This document shows positions 5,814-59,073 of a stretch of 64,000 bases of DNA, in pieces. The DNA is from a virus, in the IMG/VR virus record IMGVR_UViG_3300028840_001395, positions 186,001-250,000 of that record, one strand, 5' to 3'. The notes beneath the pieces are model-generated. The model was not told the DNA's origin, ran no database searches, and saw nothing but the letters and a program-made list of their open reading frames with translations. Each line of letters starts with the position of its first letter. Position 1 is the first letter of the stretch. The position numbers were made by a program, and so were the translations under genes.

Positions 5814-5846
5814 TAGACTACTCTGTCGGAAGGAGAAATAAGCCCC
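5814..5846 (-). promoter_or_regulatory. Phage-type promoter (CTTATT-N16-TAGTCTAG)
   Basis: Minus-strand reading GGGGCTTATT, spacer ending GACAGAG, TAGTCTAGG, 15 nt before the SLOG start codon. It precedes a protein gene and has the TAGTCT form of the -10 element. Confidence 0.85.
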
Positions 5847-6148
5847 AAGAAATGACGAAGCCCGCGCCTGGCGAGTCTTCCGGGGGTCGGAAGAGAGCCT
5901 GCTTGCGCGGGTCTCCGTAGCACCGGCATATCCAGAGAAGTCCAGATATGCCCGGCAGTGCCCTACCGGAGGGCAGTTTGTCTCATCCGGACTGCCCTCG
6001 CACCGACCCCCAGGCGTGTACGACCTCTCGCTCTAGCCTGGGGGCCTAGAACCGTGGGCCGGGACTTGCTAGAACCAGCGACCTCCGTGCAAAAGTAAGG
6101 CACCCTTCGATGAGGTGGGGGTTGGCAGCCCTTCACCTCGTGTGCTTG
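5847..6148 (-). ncRNA. Candidate structured non-coding RNA A, about 300 nt
   Basis: No credible protein gene lies here. Starting about 7 nt after the -10 of the promoter at 6154-6186, the minus-strand transcript would contain a chain of hairpins: 6112-6139 (GAGGTG/CACCTC), 6007-6044 (9 bp, CCCCCAGGC/GCCTGGGGG), 5969-5999 (9 bp), 5923-5955 (about 10 bp with a bulge) and 5861-5911 (CCCGCGC/GCGCGGG with an inner 7-bp stem at 5876-5894). The density of perfect stems far exceeds neighbouring coding DNA. No canonical tRNA cloverleaf was found. The 3' end is unknown, and function is unknown. Confidence 0.55.
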
Positions 6149-6153
6149 ACGCC

Positions 6154-6186
6154 TATACTACTCTGTCCTGACAGAAAAGTAAGCCC
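6154..6186 (-). promoter_or_regulatory. Phage-type promoter, TAGTATAG variant
   Basis: Minus-strand GGGCTTACT, 17-nt spacer ending GACAGAG, TAGTATAGG. It has the TAGTAT form of the -10 element and precedes candidate RNA A rather than a protein gene. Confidence 0.8.
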
Positions 6187-6461
6187 AAGAAAACGCGATG
6201 CCCGCCGTGGTGGGCCTTCACTCAGGAGGGGTTGACGACAGGGAACCGACCACGCTCACGTCGGGAGCCTGCCGCCAGGAAGCCTCCGGCGAGGGAACCT
6301 GGGCGGGCACCGAGGGATGGTTTTGTTTAGGGGGTCATCCACCCCCTCATCAAACGTCGCGCCTCATGGCGCTTTTGAGAATACAATCTTCGGCCTAGAC
6401 CCCCACCTCCATGTCCTGCGGCACCCCGCAAGGCCCCACAGGCGGTCAACCTGGTGGGGCT
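6187..6461 (-). ncRNA. Candidate structured non-coding RNA B, about 275 nt
   Basis: Between the promoters at 6467-6499 and 6154-6186 no protein gene is evident. The predicted 5' end coincides with a hairpin at 6433-6460 (GCCCCAC/GTGGGGC plus a 3-bp extension). Further stems lie at 6415-6432 (7 bp), 6359-6372 (GCGCC/GGCGC) and 6329-6347 (7 bp, AGGGGGT/ACCCCCT). Placement between two TAGTATAG promoters is the same as for RNA A. No homology to a known RNA family was recognised by eye. Confidence 0.5.
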
Positions 6462-6466
6462 ACACC

Positions 6467-11607: not shown

Positions 11608-12114
11608 ATGAACACTCACGAAGCCTACGCCGAGGAAATCCGCCGAGGTGTCTGGGCCGACCCGAACCCCGACCGCTGCGGCTGCAAAGGAACCGGCCTG
11701 TGGGTGTCGGACTTCGACAGCTACCACGAGTGCCCGTTCCACGGCGACCCCGACATCCCCGACCCCGAGTGGGATGACGAGACCCACGGTCCCTGCACCT
11801 TCGACTGGGACGCCCACGAGCGCCGCATCTGCGTGGATGCCTACCGGCACTTCCGCGATCAGGCCGTCGAACTGGGCCTCTCCGCCGAGGTCTTCGAGGC
11901 CATCTGCCGCCGCGACCTGGGAGCGGGCGAGCACACCCCCCGCGAGTGGGTGAACGCCGCCAACGCCGCCGCCGAGGAGCTGGCCCACACCCTGGAGGAA
12001 GCCAACGCCCGCGCCGAGGGCTTCTCCTGCGCCCTGGAGCGCCGCCTCGAAGAGGAGTACGAGATCGAGATGCAGGAGTACGAGGAAGAAGTCCGAGCCA
12101 CGGGTATCCGATAG
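11608..12114 (+). CDS. Hypothetical acidic protein, 168 aa
   Basis: Not recognised. Cysteines in the first 40 residues (CGC, CPFHG) suggest a small metal site; the last 60 residues are Glu/Ala-rich and probably coiled coil. It ends in TAG immediately before the -35 element of the next promoter. Confidence 0.65.
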   Translation: MNTHEAYAEEIRRGVWADPNPDRCGCKGTGLWVSDFDSYHECPFHGDPDIPDPEWDDETHGPCTFDWDAHERRICVDAYRHFRDQAVELGLSAEVFEAICRRDLGAGEHTPREWVNAANAAAEELAHTLEEANARAEGFSCALERRLEEEYEIEMQEYEEEVRATGIR

Positions 12115-12148
12115 GGGGCTTACTTCCGGCCCGGTGAGAGTAGTCTGG
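12115..12148 (+). promoter_or_regulatory. Phage-type promoter (CTTACT-N16-TAGTCTGG)
   Basis: GGGGGCTTACT, spacer ending GTGAGAG, TAGTCTGG, 15 nt before the ligase start codon. It abuts the TAG stop at 12112-12114. Confidence 0.85.
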
Positions 12149-12162
12149 TCACGGAGGTTTCG

Positions 12163-13302
12163 ATGGCCAAGTCCAAGATCGAGAAGCTCGCGGCCCTGAT
12201 CGCCAAGGCCAAGGACGCGTACTACAACGGGAAACCCATCATGGGTGACCCCGAGTATGACGCGCTCGAAGACGAGCTGCGGAAGCTCGACCCGAGCAAC
12301 CCCGTCCTGGCGATGGTCGGTGCAGACCCGACCGGGAGCGGCTGGCCCAAGGTCAAGCACGAGATCCCGATGGGGTCGCTCCGCAAGGCCCAGGACTCCG
12401 ACGACATGGACAAGTGGTTCTCGACGCAGAGCGTCAACACGCCGGTCTGTGTCTCCGACAAGCTCGACGGCATCAGCATCGGCCTGCGCTACGAGAAAGG
12501 CAAGCTCGTCCAGGGCTTGACGCGGGGCGACGGCGACACGGGTGAGGACATCACCAGGAACGTCATGCTGATGCAGGGCGCGGTCAAGGTGCTCCCCAAG
12601 ACGGTCAAGGGCAAGCCCCTCCCCGACGTGGTGTACGTGCGGGGCGAGGTGGTGGTCAAGAAGTCCGACTTCGCCGCCAACTTCAAGGGCGACTCCAACC
12701 CGAGGAACACCGCGAGCGGGACGGCCAAGCGCCAGAGTGACCCGAGCAAGTGCAAGCACCTGACCATCCTCGCGTACCAGTGGCTCCCGGACGGCATGGC
12801 CCCGGAGTTCAAGTGCGACGAGTTCCACGCGCTGGTCGAGGCCGGGTTCCAAACCGCCAACTTCAAGGTCTGCAAGAACGCGGCCCAGGTACAGGCCTTC
12901 TACCAGGAGTACGTGGACAAGACCCGCGACTCCCTGGACTACCTGATCGACGGGCTCGTGGTGGACATCGATGACCGGGACGTGCGCGAGGGCAAGGGCA
13001 CCACGGACGGTCGGCCCAAGGGCGCGGTGGCCTACAAGTTCCCGCACGAGAAGAAGCCGACCACGCTCCGGAACATCCGCTGGCAGGTGGGCAACTCGGG
13101 GCGCATCACCCCGGTCGCAGAGTTCGACACCGTGAACCTGGCGGGCGCGAACGTGAGCCAGGCCAGCCTCCACACGGTCGAGCGTGTCAAGAAGTTGAAA
13201 TTGTTCAAGGGATGCCGTATCCTGGTGTCGCGGCGAAATGATGTGATTCCAATGGTGGAGGCAAACCTGGATGAAAACATCAACATCAGCGACTTCGAGT
13301 AG
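12163..13302 (+). CDS. ligA: NAD-dependent DNA ligase, N-terminal part (adenylation and OB domains), 379 aa
   Basis: The first half of a bacterial-type LigA. Domain Ia is at residues 1-60 (YYNG, EYDAL). The adenylation motif KLDG places the AMP-accepting lysine at K100, followed by TRGDGDTGED (about 120-129), the NPRNTASGT motif and a later AYKFP. An OB-fold segment with NLAGANVSQASLH ends at the ARRND-VIP-like strand. The protein stops there, where an intact LigA (about 670 aa) would continue into the zinc finger. A homing endonuclease gene follows, overlapping by 32 nt. From about 13190 codon use shifts to AT-richer codons, as if the end of this gene came with the insertion. Whether it works with the separately encoded C-terminal part is inference. 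Confidence 0.9.
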   Translation: MAKSKIEKLAALIAKAKDAYYNGKPIMGDPEYDALEDELRKLDPSNPVLAMVGADPTGSGWPKVKHEIPMGSLRKAQDSDDMDKWFSTQSVNTPVCVSDKLDGISIGLRYEKGKLVQGLTRGDGDTGEDITRNVMLMQGAVKVLPKTVKGKPLPDVVYVRGEVVVKKSDFAANFKGDSNPRNTASGTAKRQSDPSKCKHLTILAYQWLPDGMAPEFKCDEFHALVEAGFQTANFKVCKNAAQVQAFYQEYVDKTRDSLDYLIDGLVVDIDDRDVREGKGTTDGRPKGAVAYKFPHEKKPTTLRNIRWQVGNSGRITPVAEFDTVNLAGANVSQASLHTVERVKKLKLFKGCRILVSRRNDVIPMVEANLDENINISDFE

Positions 13303-16812: not shown

Positions 16813-18489
16813 ATGGCAGAGAAGCTCAAGAGACGCGAGTTCCCGTCCGGCTACAACCCGGACGACTTCGAGTACAAGGGTCGCCCGGCCAACGACCAGG
16901 GCGACTTCGGCGGCGACGTGGGCATCGCGGACATGGCCTGCGTCGATCAGTTCGGAGAGAAGAACGCCAGCAAGTTCTACCACGGCGGCGTCGTCCAGGC
17001 GAACGACGGCACCTGGTTCCTCTACACGGAGTGGGGCCGCTGCAAGCCCGGCAACTCCTGGTCGGGTTCGTCCTGGACGGGCAACGCCCAGGACTTCCAG
17101 TTCGTCCGCTGCGGCTCCGAGGATGAGACCCGCGCCGAGTTCGCCAAGAAGATGGCGAGCAAGAACACCAAGCGCCTGACGCAGATCGACGTGGGCGGCA
17201 AGAAGGTGTGGGCGGGCAAGAAGGGCAAGGACGGCTACATCGTCCAGCAGCTTGCCACCCGCGAGAAGGGCCTCCCCGACGCCCTCCGCATCAAGGACAA
17301 CTCGGGCGTCGGCTCCGCCGCCAACGGTGGCAACGGCAAGACGGCGAAGCCGAAGGCCAAGGGCAAGAAGGCCAAGGCCGCGAAGCCGACCCGCAAGTTC
17401 GACCAGCAGGTCGTGTCCCTCGCTTCGTCGCTGGTCGGCGGCACGCAGACCTACACCCGGTCGCTCTCGGCGGCGTCCGGCGTCACGCCGACGATGAACG
17501 CCATCGAGGAGGTCAGGAACGACCTGATCCCCGCCGCGATGGAGCGCATCAAGACGGTCGGTGACGACGTGAGCGCCCAGGTGCGGGACAACAAGCTCGT
17601 CGCCATCTCCAAGATGGTCGCCGCGATGGTTCCGCGCCCCATCCCGCGCAAGGGCCAGAGCGAGGAGGACGCGATCCTCTCCGGCGGCAACATCCTGGTC
17701 TTGCAGCAGGACTTGGACGCCTTCGAGGCCGCGCTCCTGAACGAGGACTTCGAGCAGGAGGCCCCCGACACCACGGTCAACCCGGACACGCTGCTCAACG
17801 CCCGGCTGTCCTACCTCGACCCCAAGGGTGACGGCAAGTGGGTCGCCCAGGCCTTCGCCAAGATGACCGCCAACCGGCACGGCTACATCCGGGGCCGGAT
17901 GAACGTGCGGCACATCTTCGCCGTCGAGCGCCCCGACCGCGACGCCCGGTTCATGAAGTGCGTCAAGCAGATCGCGGCCAAGCGCAAGGGCCGGTTCAGC
18001 CTGACGGCGAACCTCCAGCCCCGCTCGCGGAACGACCTGAACGGCATCGGGGACGACTATGGCCTGGCGAACGTGGTGCTGGCCATCCACGGCACCCGGC
18101 CCGTCAACATCGCCCCCATCATGGGGACGAACTTCCGACTGCCGCGCAGTCTGCCCGGCGCGCAGATCACCGGGGCCAACTTCGGTCACGGGGTGTACTT
18201 CGCCACGGACTGGAAGAAGTCCTACGGCTACACGGGGCGCGGGTACTGGGGGCACTCGGGCGGCGACATCCGCAACCGAGGGTGCTTCATGTTCCTCTGC
18301 GACATGGCGATGGGCGACCCCTACCGCGCCCCCTCGACCGGCTCATGGAGCCAGCCCCCGCAGGGCAAGGACTCCGTGTTCGGCGTCGGCGGCGACCGAG
18401 GCCACCGGCTGGAGAACGACGAACACGTCATCTTCAACCCGGACTACCAGCGCATCCGCTACCTGGTCGAGTTCGACTGGCTGACCTAG
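16813..18489 (+). CDS. WGR-domain poly(ADP-ribose) polymerase-like protein, 558 aa
   Basis: Transfers ADP-ribose from NAD+ to an acceptor if active. Residues about 50-160 form a WGR domain (W74-G75-R76), the nucleic-acid-binding and allosteric domain of DNA-dependent PARPs. A Lys/Ala-rich linker (about 175-195) and a helical region (195-350) follow. The C-terminal catalytic domain has the full H-Y-E triad: H426 in HGTR, Y462 in GHGVYFATD and E537 in NDEHVIF. An intact triad is typical of polymer-forming PARPs. There are no zinc fingers, as in bacterial PARPs and PARP2/3. It sits between the split ligase and small genes, under its own strong promoter. Target and role in infection are unknown. 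Confidence 0.9.
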   Translation: MAEKLKRREFPSGYNPDDFEYKGRPANDQGDFGGDVGIADMACVDQFGEKNASKFYHGGVVQANDGTWFLYTEWGRCKPGNSWSGSSWTGNAQDFQFVRCGSEDETRAEFAKKMASKNTKRLTQIDVGGKKVWAGKKGKDGYIVQQLATREKGLPDALRIKDNSGVGSAANGGNGKTAKPKAKGKKAKAAKPTRKFDQQVVSLASSLVGGTQTYTRSLSAASGVTPTMNAIEEVRNDLIPAAMERIKTVGDDVSAQVRDNKLVAISKMVAAMVPRPIPRKGQSEEDAILSGGNILVLQQDLDAFEAALLNEDFEQEAPDTTVNPDTLLNARLSYLDPKGDGKWVAQAFAKMTANRHGYIRGRMNVRHIFAVERPDRDARFMKCVKQIAAKRKGRFSLTANLQPRSRNDLNGIGDDYGLANVVLAIHGTRPVNIAPIMGTNFRLPRSLPGAQITGANFGHGVYFATDWKKSYGYTGRGYWGHSGGDIRNRGCFMFLCDMAMGDPYRAPSTGSWSQPPQGKDSVFGVGGDRGHRLENDEHVIFNPDYQRIRYLVEFDWLT

Positions 18490-55385: not shown

Positions 55386-55414
55386 ATAGTAGGGGCCTTC
55401 TGGCCCCGTGTCAA
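55386..55414 (-). promoter_or_regulatory. Host sigma70-type promoter with inverted repeat in the spacer
   Basis: TTGACA (55409-55414), 17-nt spacer, TACTAT (55386-55391), reading toward 54570-55256. The spacer contains GGGGCC-AGAA-GGCCCC, a perfect 6-bp inverted repeat that could be an operator. It is the best host-type promoter seen in the window. Confidence 0.7.
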
Positions 55415-55929
55415 GATCCTTCTCCGCCTTCCATGACCGCCAGCATCGACCGGAACGTCGCCCCATCGTCCGTGGGGCCAGGAACGAGAACCTCTTTCCA
55501 GTTCGAGCCTATCTGCTTGATGACCCCCAACCGGAACTTGATGATGGCCTTGGCCTCGACCTGGCGGATGCGCTCACGGGTCAGGTTGAACAGCTCACCC
55601 ACCTTCTCCAAGGTGAGGCCATCTGGATTCCTCTCGGCCACGTCGAGGACACAGCTCTCCCCTCCGATGTGCTCTCCCGCTTCGACCTCGGGGAAGTTCG
55701 GCATGATGGAGCCAGCGTGGCTCACGTCGAGGTAGAGGTTGTACTTGCAGGTGACGTAGGGACAGGGCCGAACCCCGTGCCTGCAATGCGCCCGGAGACG
55801 GGGGAGATGACGGGGTGTCCTCGGCCCCTGGAGAGGTTCTTCGTTGTTGACCGGGATGGTCTTCTTGAACTTGCGTTTCGGGTTCATCTCGGGATCGATC
55901 TGAAGTGCTGTGGCTCCTTCTTCCATCAC
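55411..55929 (-). CDS. Sigma-70 region-4-like DNA-binding protein, 172 aa
   Basis: Residues about 105-135 (GLTLEKVGELFNLTRERIRQVEAKAI) are a typical sigma region 4.2 helix-turn-helix, which contacts the -35 box. The part before it (CPYVTCKYNLYLDV; GESCVLDVAER) resembles proteins I associate with myxobacterial and other deltaproteobacterial genomes. Region 2, which reads the -10 box, is absent, so it is a co-regulator or partial sigma rather than a full factor. It follows two tRNA genes behind a TAGTATAG promoter; recognition of the CTTAT element is a testable inference. Confidence 0.75.
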   Translation of the reverse strand: MMEEGATALQIDPEMNPKRKFKKTIPVNNEEPLQGPRTPRHLPRLRAHCRHGVRPCPYVTCKYNLYLDVSHAGSIMPNFPEVEAGEHIGGESCVLDVAERNPDGLTLEKVGELFNLTRERIRQVEAKAIIKFRLGVIKQIGSNWKEVLVPGPTDDGATFRSMLAVMEGGEGS

Positions 55930-55942
55930 TTCCTCACGTTCA

Positions 55943-56033
55943 TGGTCGCTCCGACAGGAATCGAACCTGCGATGCGGGTGTCACCCCGAGCGGATTTAGA
56001 GTCCGCCTCCTTCGACCACTCGGACACGGAGCG
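55943..56033 (-). tRNA. tRNA with anticodon CUA (decodes UAG), Ser-like
   Basis: Acceptor CGCTCCG pairs with CGGAGCG, then A and an encoded CCA. D-arm TCCGAGTGGTCGAAGGA is of the tRNA-Ser kind. Anticodon stem GCGGA/TCCGC encloses CTCTAAA, giving anticodon CUA at 55997-55999. A long variable arm (GGGTGACACCC) and T-arm GCAGG-TTCGATT-CCTGT complete an 88-nt class II cloverleaf. This would read amber codons, probably as serine; charging identity is inferred. Confidence 0.88.
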
Positions 56034-56043
56034 ATTGAAGTGT

Positions 56044-56258
56044 GGCGCGTGACAGGAGTCGAACCTGCATAACCCTCCCCACAAGGGGGAAGGCAAAGAA
56101 GAGGCCAGGCCTGGTCAAGAGAGGGGCCTGCGACATCCACGCCGAGCGGGCCTAGCAGGCCCGTGTCCCGACTCATCCCATCTGCATGGCGATCCACCAT
56201 GCGTGCCCTTCTTCTCCCCCGGTTAAAGCGGGGGGCCTCACCGTTGGGCTACACGCGC
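56044..56258 (-). tRNA. Interrupted tRNA-like gene, Gln-like, apparent anticodon UUA
   Basis: The 5' part (from 56258) has acceptor GCGCGTG, a D-arm GCCC-AACGGTGA-GGC and anticodon arm CCCCG-CTTTAAC-CGGGG (anticodon UUA, would read UAA). The 3' part has T-arm GCAGG-TTCGACT-CCTGT and CACGCGC, which pairs with the 5' acceptor over 7 bp. About 140 nt lie between, containing hairpins such as GCATGG/CCATGC and CGGGCCT/AGGCCCG. It starts 3-4 nt after the expected start site of the promoter at 56268-56300. It may be an intron-bearing tRNA, a tRNA with a giant variable arm, or a tRNA-like regulatory RNA. Confidence 0.55.
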
Positions 56259-56267
56259 ACTGTCCTC

Positions 56268-56300
56268 TATACTACTCTCTAAGGCGGGAGGATAAGCCCA
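56268..56300 (-). promoter_or_regulatory. Phage-type promoter, TAGTATAG variant, for the tRNA genes
   Basis: Minus-strand GGGCTTATC, 16-nt spacer ending GAGAG, TAGTATAG. It overlaps the end of the 2H phosphoesterase gene, whose last codons encode the -35 element and whose TAG lies in the spacer. Confidence 0.85.
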
Positions 56301-56779
56301 GGAGCATCGAAGTGGGCCATCCCCCCATCCCACCAGCCTACCCGAGCCTTGAACGCAGGATAGCCCTTTCTTATGTCCATGTCACCCGATTTCTTGCGGA
56401 TCAGGTCATTCGCGTAGGCCGGAACCACCCCCGTGGCCGTCGAGACTGTGACGTGGGGAGTCCGGCCCGCTACAGTCCGGAACTTCGTGGGAGGTTTCAC
56501 AATGAGCACCTGGGCCTTCTCATCCGAGACCTCCCCGACCACCTTGACCGCGACCGACTTGCCCCACGGGAGACTGTGGGGCCTTGTCTCTTCGCCGTCC
56601 TTGAAGTGCCAGATGGTCATGTGGTGAGCGAGTCTGACAGGGAAGCTCGGGGGAAAGGCCCGAAGGAGTCGTTGGCGGTCTTGGGAGGCGATGAACAGGG
56701 CGATGTAGATCACGCCATCGTCGGGGTGTCCAGCAACACGTCGCAGCCACCTGGCCGCGACTCGGTTGGCTGCTATCAC
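56279..56779 (-). CDS. 2H phosphoesterase-like protein, 166 aa
   Basis: Two H-x-T motifs, H53-M-T55 in HHMTIWHF and H109-V-T111 in PHVTVSTATG, about 55 residues apart and each followed by a hydrophobic strand, define the 2H superfamily. Members open cyclic phosphates or 2'-5' bonds in RNA; the anti-CBASS phage protein Acb1 is one example. Position directly upstream of tRNA genes would also fit tRNA repair. Substrate unknown. ATGA overlap with the response-regulator gene upstream. Confidence 0.72.
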   Translation of the reverse strand: MIAANRVAARWLRRVAGHPDDGVIYIALFIASQDRQRLLRAFPPSFPVRLAHHMTIWHFKDGEETRPHSLPWGKSVAVKVVGEVSDEKAQVLIVKPPTKFRTVAGRTPHVTVSTATGVVPAYANDLIRKKSGDMDIRKGYPAFKARVGWWDGGMAHFDAPGLILPP

Positions 56780-57198
56780 GTAGTACCCGGCGGAGTGGGG
56801 ATCACCGAGGTTTCAAGCCAGTATCTCTTGACATCCTTCAGAAGGTTCTCCAGGTCACCATAGTTGATCGGCTTGACCACGTAGGAGTTCGCCCCATCGT
56901 AGAAAGACTGGAAGATGTCCGCCTCCAGCTTCGAGGTCGTCATCACGATCACCGGGATGTGGCGCAAGCTCGGATCATTCCGGATTTCCCGGAGGGCTTC
57001 CTGGCCGTCCATCAAGGGCATCTGCAAGTCGAGCATGACCACATCGGGTAACTTGCCCGACCGGAGACGCTCCAAGAGCTTCTGACCGTTCTCGACCCGC
57101 TCGACTTGAAGCGAGCAGTCGCAGTCCTTCATCGCTTCCTGAATGAGAACCCAGTCCTCACGATCATCTTCGGCAAAAAGAACCAGCGGGTCACTCAT
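56776..57198 (-). CDS. Single-domain response regulator (CheY/Rcp1-like), 140 aa
   Basis: Complete receiver domain: acidic pair EDD at 10-12, phosphoacceptor D57 in VMLDLQMP, T87 and K109 in VVKPI. No output domain. It overlaps the histidine kinase gene by 8 nt, as in many kinase-Rcp1 pairs. It would take phosphate from the kinase and act by protein contact. Confidence 0.9.
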   Translation of the reverse strand: MSDPLVLFAEDDREDWVLIQEAMKDCDCSLQVERVENGQKLLERLRSGKLPDVVMLDLQMPLMDGQEALREIRNDPSLRHIPVIVMTTSKLEADIFQSFYDGANSYVVKPINYGDLENLLKDVKRYWLETSVIPTPPGTT

Positions 57199-58288
57199 TG
57201 TGGGACTCCGGGGTCAAAGGGATTCTGATAATGAACGCAGCGCCGACGCCAGGTTCACCGCGAGCTTCGATGGTCGCCCCATACTGCTCAAGCAGACGAC
57301 GACAGAGGGCCAAACCAATACCCGTACCGGGATAGTCAAAGCGGGTGTGCAGCCTCGTGAACACCTCGAAGATCTTGTCCGCGTGCCCCTGGTCGAAACC
57401 AATGCCATTGTCCTGAACCACCACCACCGCGTCGTCTCCCTCGACGGTGCCGTGAATCTTGATCACCAAGGGGCGTTCGGGGTGGCGGAACTTGAGTGCA
57501 TTGGACAGGAGATTGGCGAACACCTGCCGAATCTGCATCGTATGGGCATGGACGGTCGGAAGTTCCCCCACCACGACCTCGGCGTTCGCCTCCTGCACCC
57601 TCAACTCAAGGTCTTGCAGGGCTTCCCGCAGCACACGACCCAGATCGACCACCATGAGAGGTACGTCGGTGTATCCAGCCCGTGCGTAGCTCAGCAGGTT
57701 ATCGATGAGATGGGACATCCGTTCTGTGGCCGAGAGCATCACCTGGAGATATTCGGCCCCGCGTTGGTCTATCTGGTCACTATACTTCTCTGTGAGGATC
57801 TTCCCGAACCCCTTGATCTTGTTCAAAGGTTCCCGGAGGTCGTGAGAGGCAGCATAGGCGAAGCTCTGGAGGGCTCGGTTGGAGGACTCAAGTTGCTTGG
57901 TGCGCTCCTGAACAGCATCTTCGAGCTTCTTCTGGGCCTTCTTCTGCTCGGACACATCCCTGATCACAACGATCACCTCGTTGTCTCCCGAGGCAGAGAA
58001 GCGGGCCTCGAACACACAGTCGGGGAACTCGTCCAGGGTGTATTCCCAGAGCAGGACTTCGCCGGTCTCCAAAGCTCCGAGGATGTAGTGCATCGCCTGT
58101 TCAGTGAACTCGGCGTCAAAGATCTCACCGACGGTCCGACCCACATACTCACTCGGAGAGACAAGCGACGGAACCTTCCCGACATGGGTGTCGAGGAATC
58201 GACCTTCTCGATTGAGCAGGTGGAGCATGTCCGGAGTTGCCCGAACGAATGCTCGGTAACGAGCCTCAATCGTGGTCAAGTGATCCAT
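57191..58288 (-). CDS. PAS-domain sensor histidine kinase, 365 aa
   Basis: PAS-like sensory domain (about 5-115, ending VVIRDVSEQKK), coiled coil, HisKA with H149 in SHDLREPL, and an ATPase domain with N263 (NLLSNALKF), DNGIGFD and GTGIGLALCRRL. No membrane segment, so cytoplasmic. Start at ATG 58288, overlapping the upstream response regulator by 13 nt. All catalytic boxes are intact. The PAS ligand is unknown. Confidence 0.93.
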   Translation of the reverse strand: MDHLTTIEARYRAFVRATPDMLHLLNREGRFLDTHVGKVPSLVSPSEYVGRTVGEIFDAEFTEQAMHYILGALETGEVLLWEYTLDEFPDCVFEARFSASGDNEVIVVIRDVSEQKKAQKKLEDAVQERTKQLESSNRALQSFAYAASHDLREPLNKIKGFGKILTEKYSDQIDQRGAEYLQVMLSATERMSHLIDNLLSYARAGYTDVPLMVVDLGRVLREALQDLELRVQEANAEVVVGELPTVHAHTMQIRQVFANLLSNALKFRHPERPLVIKIHGTVEGDDAVVVVQDNGIGFDQGHADKIFEVFTRLHTRFDYPGTGIGLALCRRLLEQYGATIEARGEPGVGAAFIIRIPLTPESHNE

Positions 58289-59073
58289 CCCGACCCCGAC
58301 GCACTCACCATGCTCTTGAGGTCTTTCAAGTCCTTGAGCTTGTCCACGTTGAGTGCATCGAGCAGGAGTACGAACAGAACAGCGACGAGCACCAAGCACA
58401 GGAACATGACGATGGCGGCGACGGGATGGGCACCAATCCACTCAAGTGCCCACTTCCAGGCAGACTTGTTGGCGTTCTTGACCTCCTCCAGAATCGCATC
58501 GTGCTGGGTCTTGTCCTCCTCGGCCCGACGCTTCATCCCCTGGGAGAAGTCACGTCGAAGCTCTGACATCTCCTGAGAGGTCTTGGTCTGGGCCTGGACG
58601 GACTCTCGGGTCAACCCCACAAGCTGCTCGATGAGAACTCCGACACCGGGCGCACCGTCACCATTCTGGCGGCGCTTCTCCTGCACCCCGATGGCATAGA
58701 GGCAAGTGCGCTCCAGCAGGTCGCCCCCAAAGGTGCCCTTCTCCAGATACTCGACAGCCCCGATGTCCATTGCCTGAAGCTGAAGGTTCCGGTCTCCATG
58801 ACTGGTCACGATGATGACAGGAGTATGGAAGTGCAGCTCGTGGAGCTTGCGGAGAAACGTGATGCCGTCACTGTCCGGCAGCTTGTAGTCGAGGAGGACT
58901 ACATCGTAGCGGTGATGCGTCTGCTGGAGTTGGTAGAAGCCTTCCTGTGCCGTGTGCGCGTCGTCAACGACGAACTTCGCTCGGCTGGCGTCCTCTAGCA
59001 GATCCCGGATGAGACGGCAATCGTCCTGATCGTCATCAATCACCAAGACCCGGACGGTCAAAGGAGAAGGCAT
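58276..59073 (-). CDS. Response regulator receiver with C-terminal membrane anchor, 265 aa
   Basis: Receiver domain at 1-125 with DDD (13-15), D62 in VLLDYKLPDSDG, S91 and K112. A charged coiled coil (about 150-215) leads to one hydrophobic helix (HPVAAIVMFLCLVLVAVLFV) and a short tail. A receiver tethered to the membrane by its own C-terminus is unusual. It is first in the three-gene phosphorelay operon and could recruit the kinase to the membrane. Confidence 0.88.
   Translation of the reverse strand: MPSPLTVRVLVIDDDQDDCRLIRDLLEDASRAKFVVDDAHTAQEGFYQLQQTHHRYDVVLLDYKLPDSDGITFLRKLHELHFHTPVIIVTSHGDRNLQLQAMDIGAVEYLEKGTFGGDLLERTCLYAIGVQEKRRQNGDGAPGVGVLIEQLVGLTRESVQAQTKTSQEMSELRRDFSQGMKRRAEEDKTQHDAILEEVKNANKSAWKWALEWIGAHPVAAIVMFLCLVLVAVLFVLLLDALNVDKLKDLKDLKSMVSASGSGWIT

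Follow-up and report, generated by a model that had tools for sequence, protein, structure and literature searches.

We analysed a 64,000-nt stretch of phage DNA (the window), which corresponds to bases 186001–250000 of a 435,804-bp virus record (~436 kb phage). On the minus strand, positions 56258–56044 hold a complete tRNA cloverleaf together with a structured insert of 140–148 nt. This interrupted tRNA occupies the gap between the minus-strand reading frames 56279–56779 and 55411–55929, and an intact tRNA with a CUA anticodon lies 10 bp away. The features of the locus, in window coordinates, are:

56265–56299, minus strand: predicted phage promoter, GGCTTAT (-35-like) and AGAGTAGTATAG (-10-like), by consensus match
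56252–56258, minus strand: 5' strand of the acceptor stem, GCGCGUG, 7/7 pairs with 56045–56051 (P > 0.97)
56235–56249, minus strand: D-arm, GCCC-AACGGUGA-GGC (Rfam tRNA alignment and fold)
56217–56233, minus strand: anticodon arm, CCCCG-CUUUAAC-CGGGG, anticodon UUA (Rfam, ARAGORN; local stem P 0.9)
56069–56216, minus strand: insert, placed in the variable region in the favoured reading (cmscan alignment; fold z -2.7)
56082–56221, minus strand: the same insert taken as a 140-nt intron in a rival reading (ARAGORN)
56130–56156, minus strand: 27-nt hairpin, GCUAGGCCCGCUCGGCGUGGAUGUCGC, with a 26/27 copy at G000:C1:251690–251716 (plus strand)
56052–56068, minus strand: T-arm, GCAGG-UUCGACU-CCUGU (Rfam tRNA alignment and fold)
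56044–56051, minus strand: 3' strand of the acceptor stem, CACGCGC, and base 73 (C), with no encoded CCA
55943–56033, minus strand: intact CUA-anticodon (amber-reading) tRNA with a long variable arm and CCA (ARAGORN; Rfam, 55 bits)

Next to the interrupted tRNA the phage encodes a histidine kinase and a pair of response regulators (56776–59073, minus strand). We took an open reading frame that runs out of the insert and across the CTA tRNA to be a chance frame in DNA of 62% GC.

All four arms of the cloverleaf are present, with the conserved T-loop and D-loop bases. The T-stem pairs at 5/5 positions, as does the anticodon stem around the 7-base loop CUUUAAC, where the ochre-type anticodon UUA follows U33 and would read UAA. 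The Rfam tRNA model (RF00005) spans 56044–56258 of the minus strand end to end with 28.2 bits (E 7.8e-4, 501 bases), which with the insert in place is just below the gathering score of 29, and the covariance model assigns the insert to the variable region. When introns were allowed, ARAGORN called a tRNA-Stop(tta) of 75 nt with a 140-nt insert; when they were not, the UUA tRNA was missed and only the neighbouring CTA tRNA was found. As a control, 40 dinucleotide shuffles of the window gave 3 intron-type calls in 2.56 Mb, or ~0.075 per 64 kb, making a chance origin of the interrupted cloverleaf unlikely. The initial annotation had described a 7-bp acceptor stem, D-arm, UUA anticodon arm, T-arm and insert; these parts and their positions proved exact. 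The gene ends in CACGCGC-C-ACA, so that the CCA tail is not encoded, while 65 of the 70 ARAGORN tRNAs sampled from the phage do encode it; CCA could possibly be added by the host.

The promoter-like boxes end a few bases upstream of the tRNA 5' end. They follow a consensus, a [G/T]CTTA box and then AGAGTAGTNTAG, whose spacing is kept at all 17 sites collected from the window and from loci L033–L036 and L055 (at the 17 AGAGTAGTNTA sites, [G/T]CTTA always lies at -19/-20). Judged by its sequence, the interrupted tRNA appears to be a genuine gene under a phage promoter of its own. Two further promoter-headed stretches of ~300 nt each stand in tandem at window 5840–6466 (minus strand); they belong to no Rfam family and are possibly phage noncoding RNAs.

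We then considered the fold. Relative to shuffled sequences, the whole 56044–56258 element gave z-scores of -3.2 to -3.5 and the insert alone -2.7, and the full cloverleaf forms when the minimum-energy fold is computed with the insert included. The two ends of the insert are complementary and can form a helix (GGGGGA/UUCCCCC), and a GGGGAG repeat can be read in the sequence at both of its edges. In an alternative fold, CCCCG of the anticodon stem pairs with a distal UGGGG, the 3' junction falls in a short bulge beside this helix, and a long helix within the insert closes it off. The initial annotation had pointed out these two mutually exclusive pairings and suggested an anticodon-loop intron or a switchable RNA. 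Both can indeed be drawn, but they are far from balanced: the fold that has the local anticodon arm reaches -109.7 kcal/mol, the one with the distal pairing -103.8 kcal/mol (-101.7 if the cloverleaf is kept), and the pair probability is 0.87–0.91 for the local stem as opposed to 1e-4 for CCCCG with the distal UGGGG. Since the local pairing is favoured by 6–8 kcal/mol, the calculations give a switch no support. We consider it highly improbable that the element is a riboswitch-like RNA alternating between the two anticodon-stem pairings; Rfam also offers no known aptamer match.

Part of the insert recurs elsewhere in the phage. The 27-nt hairpin has a single further copy in the 436-kb record, with one mismatch and on the opposite strand; by our own rough estimate, not computed by a tool, a 26/27 match would arise by chance with a probability of the order of 1e-6. 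This copy sits inside a ~600-nt gap headed by the same type of promoter (L002:1018–1640, record 251207–251829). Both copies are predicted to form the same local hairpin within different enclosing stems (GGGCCUGC/GCAGGCCC and ACGC/GCGU), with the ACGC/GCGU stem of the second copy not favoured in one of four fold contexts. As a whole the gap is weakly more structured than shuffles (z -1.7), and a search of L036, which covers it, gave no Rfam match at gathering. By eye, the first 165 nt of the gap are tRNA-like, with a GGTTCAATTCC T-arm and weak acceptor pairing. Exact patterns of the 27-nt motif were absent from IMG/VR and GTDB genomes. We infer that the hairpin may be a functional module, perhaps one that binds a protein.

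The phage is rich in translation-related RNAs. A genome-wide search gave ~70 tRNA matches in the record, with anticodons covering all 20 amino acids, and a TTA-anticodon tRNA is unneeded for sense codons. That search missed the interrupted UUA tRNA, and so may have missed further interrupted tRNAs in the record. Because the record also encodes a tmRNA (tag ANDEAVLQAA, ARAGORN), the host is probably bacterial. An RtcB RNA ligase is encoded at record 101242–102504 (299 bits). Among 116 predicted genes, stop codons were TGA in 71, TAG in 35 and TAA in 10, and we rejected general stop-codon recoding because TAG and TAA still appear to end 45 of the 116. Other observations touch on decoding. The tRNAs at record 114406–114482 (L034) and 412787–412950 (L035) have odd anticodon loops (tatc, and ggga twice), possibly marking frameshift suppressors or decayed genes. 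ARAGORN also called a 223-nt "tRNA-Leu" intron in L034, but the stems are mismatched and the call is probably false. The plus-strand frame at window 11608–13302 ends in TAG, yet the same frame continues for 395 codons with coding-like usage; it may represent amber read-through or two genes sharing one frame.

Searches for relatives of the element were negative. Among 50,697 phage records searched at the DNA level, the 24 kb surrounding the element led to no relative and the element on its own matched T-arms only, and neither the two flanking proteins nor a D-arm plus UUA-anticodon pattern identified a relative in IMG/VR; no uninterrupted version of the UUA tRNA was found in these searches. One 122-kb IMG/VR genome (G001) keeps the neighbouring kinase and response regulator without the tRNAs. 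A PARP-like protein (window 16813–18489, plus strand) matches LR756511.1 (595 kb, 37% identity) and an IMG/VR contig (67%), and is also common to phages of Klebsiella, Xanthomonas and Stenotrophomonas. LR756511.1 has ~70 tRNA matches whereas the PARP-matched contig has none, and no copy of the element was seen in the stretches of either that we inspected. In LR756511.1, tRNAs carry inserts in the D-loop, the anticodon loop and the variable region, showing that interrupted tRNAs exist in other large phages; the published case is that of the Lak phages (PMC6784885).

A recurrent family of ~50-nt tRNA inserts occurs in LR756511.1, and we built a model (R1) for it. A motif with a UACAAAC end is present 15 times across ~3.4 kb around tRNA genes of this phage, and two further IMG/VR contigs hold 7–8 copies each (L043, LR756511.1 287500–292000; L059:3308–4377; L060:8625–12035). 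Fifteen aligned copies from the three contigs share two helices with 92% of cells paired, and their covariation score was 0.55; shuffles reached 0.25, and sliding gave no more than 0.15. Conserved elements are ACUYRGA, GUCYCC and the UACAAAC end. Once 38–65 nt ending at the motif were excised, ARAGORN called a tRNA spanning the join in 9 of 16 cases; without removal it called none. Several of the nine calls have implausible anticodons, and the control gave 1/195. Outward-facing motif halves flank some tRNAs in these contigs, and one such tRNA, judged by reading the sequence, resembles a circularly permuted tRNA-Lys. In L043, Rfam 15 gave no match at gathering, and the family was unreported in the literature searched, whose coverage excluded preprints and most subscription journals. 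It may be an undescribed small intron. The R1 model gave no matches in 119.5 kb of the window's phage (E 10) or in its whole record (E 1).

Taken together, we favour, at a rough probability of 0.45, a tRNA-scaffolded RNA, in which the insert is not spliced out and forms a giant variable arm. A phage tRNA gene of the UAA-reading type would have received a structured RNA of ~145 nt in its variable loop. The phage promoter would drive it, probably jointly with the amber-type tRNA behind it, and the RNA would most likely be left unspliced, keeping the usual cloverleaf with the insert protruding as a giant variable arm. The tRNA body would then provide the hairpin-bearing insert with a scaffold that is stable and can be processed by RNase P. 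That the element is transcribed and not spliced is our inference. The scaffold model is favoured by the cloverleaf in the predicted minimum-energy fold and the placement of the insert by the covariance model, and it is also backed by insert structure beyond that of shuffles and by the recurrence of the hairpin. The missing CCA, unlike in most tRNAs of this phage, fits a tRNA that is not used in translation. Against it stand the paired ends of the insert, which an intron would explain, the RtcB encoded by the phage, and the weaker predicted structure around the second hairpin copy. To our knowledge, a variable arm of this length has no precedent.

The insert could instead be an intron at about the canonical position 37/38 of the anticodon loop, cut by a nuclease and sealed by the phage RtcB to give a 75-nt ochre-reading tRNA acting alongside the amber-reading one; this we consider somewhat unlikely. 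ARAGORN builds precisely such a product, the insert is self-closed by a long helix in the alternative fold with the 3' junction in a short bulge, tRNA introns are reported for Lak megaphages (PMC6784885), and LR756511.1, which has one homologous protein in common with our phage, holds tRNAs that are detectable only after ~50 nt are removed. On the other hand, the required CCCCG/UGGGG pairing is the less stable one, and splicing would yield a tRNA with an unusual variable loop of 8 nt, closed by a G-U pair in one stem and lacking CCA. A tRNA splicing endonuclease would be unexpected in a bacterial host, and an EndA-type enzyme (tRNA_int_endo, PF01974) was absent from the phage in a search that was positive in four control archaea. 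RtcB may instead do tRNA repair, and the insert does not match the insert family of the other phages. A strict bulge-helix-bulge is also absent: the best alternative fold contains a large asymmetric internal loop and not 3-nt bulges around a 4-bp helix. Beyond the tRNA itself, Rfam gave no match to a group I catalytic core or to any other intron, group II included (E up to 10, 501 bases), nor to another family, in agreement with the earlier remark that the insert is too short for group I. Of the proposal in the initial annotation, the interrupted UUA tRNA was right; an anticodon-loop intron is a possibility, against which stand the odd variable loop, the G-U closure, the failure to find an endonuclease in the phage and the better unspliced anticodon arm. 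Protein-type tRNA splicing by a bacterial virus, in which an unknown phage or host nuclease excises the insert, RtcB ligates the halves and UAA read-through could be switched on during infection, seems quite unlikely.

An unlikely alternative of another kind is that a recent insertion disabled an ochre-type tRNA, whose RNA is perhaps still made and has no function. Such a dead gene would agree with the absent CCA (four of the five other CCA-less phage tRNAs have odd anticodon loops), with an anticodon that sense codons do not need, with the GGGGAG repeat at both edges and with the failure to find any relative bearing the insert. However, every tRNA helix is intact, the promoter fits the phage consensus, and the insert is structured beyond shuffles and shares its hairpin with another part of the phage.

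Bacterial viruses with interrupted tRNAs have been reported before, but we found nothing on the way in which these tRNAs are spliced, or on whether splicing takes place at all. The insert described here is short and matches no family, and its place in a stop-codon tRNA of a phage with its own RtcB makes it a concrete test case. If the insert is retained, the element would be a natural example of an RNA scaffolded by a tRNA; splicing, on the other hand, would reveal a bacterial-virus route of tRNA splicing for which we found no description in the literature searched.

Among known systems, the Lak megaphages (Devoto et al. 2019, PMC6784885) come close in having interrupted tRNA genes, many tRNAs, suppressor-type tRNAs and "enigmatic" introns; they differ in being low-GC and TAG-recoded, and the likeness drawn here is at the level of description. 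The R1 inserts of LR756511.1 and two IMG/VR contigs likewise lie in large-phage tRNA genes but form a compact two-helix motif ending in UACAAAC, to which the window's phage has no match. Group I introns occur in bacterial tRNA anticodon loops, for example in tRNA-Leu UAA. They resemble the phage element in an insert at or beside the anticodon arm and a 5' exon with two possible partners, whereas the phage insert is 140 nt, shows no catalytic core match and has junctions unlike the usual 5' splice-site U. Archaeal and eukaryal tRNA introns are located at 37/38. Here the position, a 3' junction that the alternative fold places in a short bulge, and an RtcB-type ligase in the genome are shared, and the phage differs in having no strict bulge-helix-bulge, no endonuclease that we could find and probably a bacterial host. 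Finally, in engineered tRNA scaffolds a tRNA body carries and stabilises an inserted RNA, as it would in the phage element, which by contrast is natural and has its insertion in the variable loop instead of replacing the anticodon arm.
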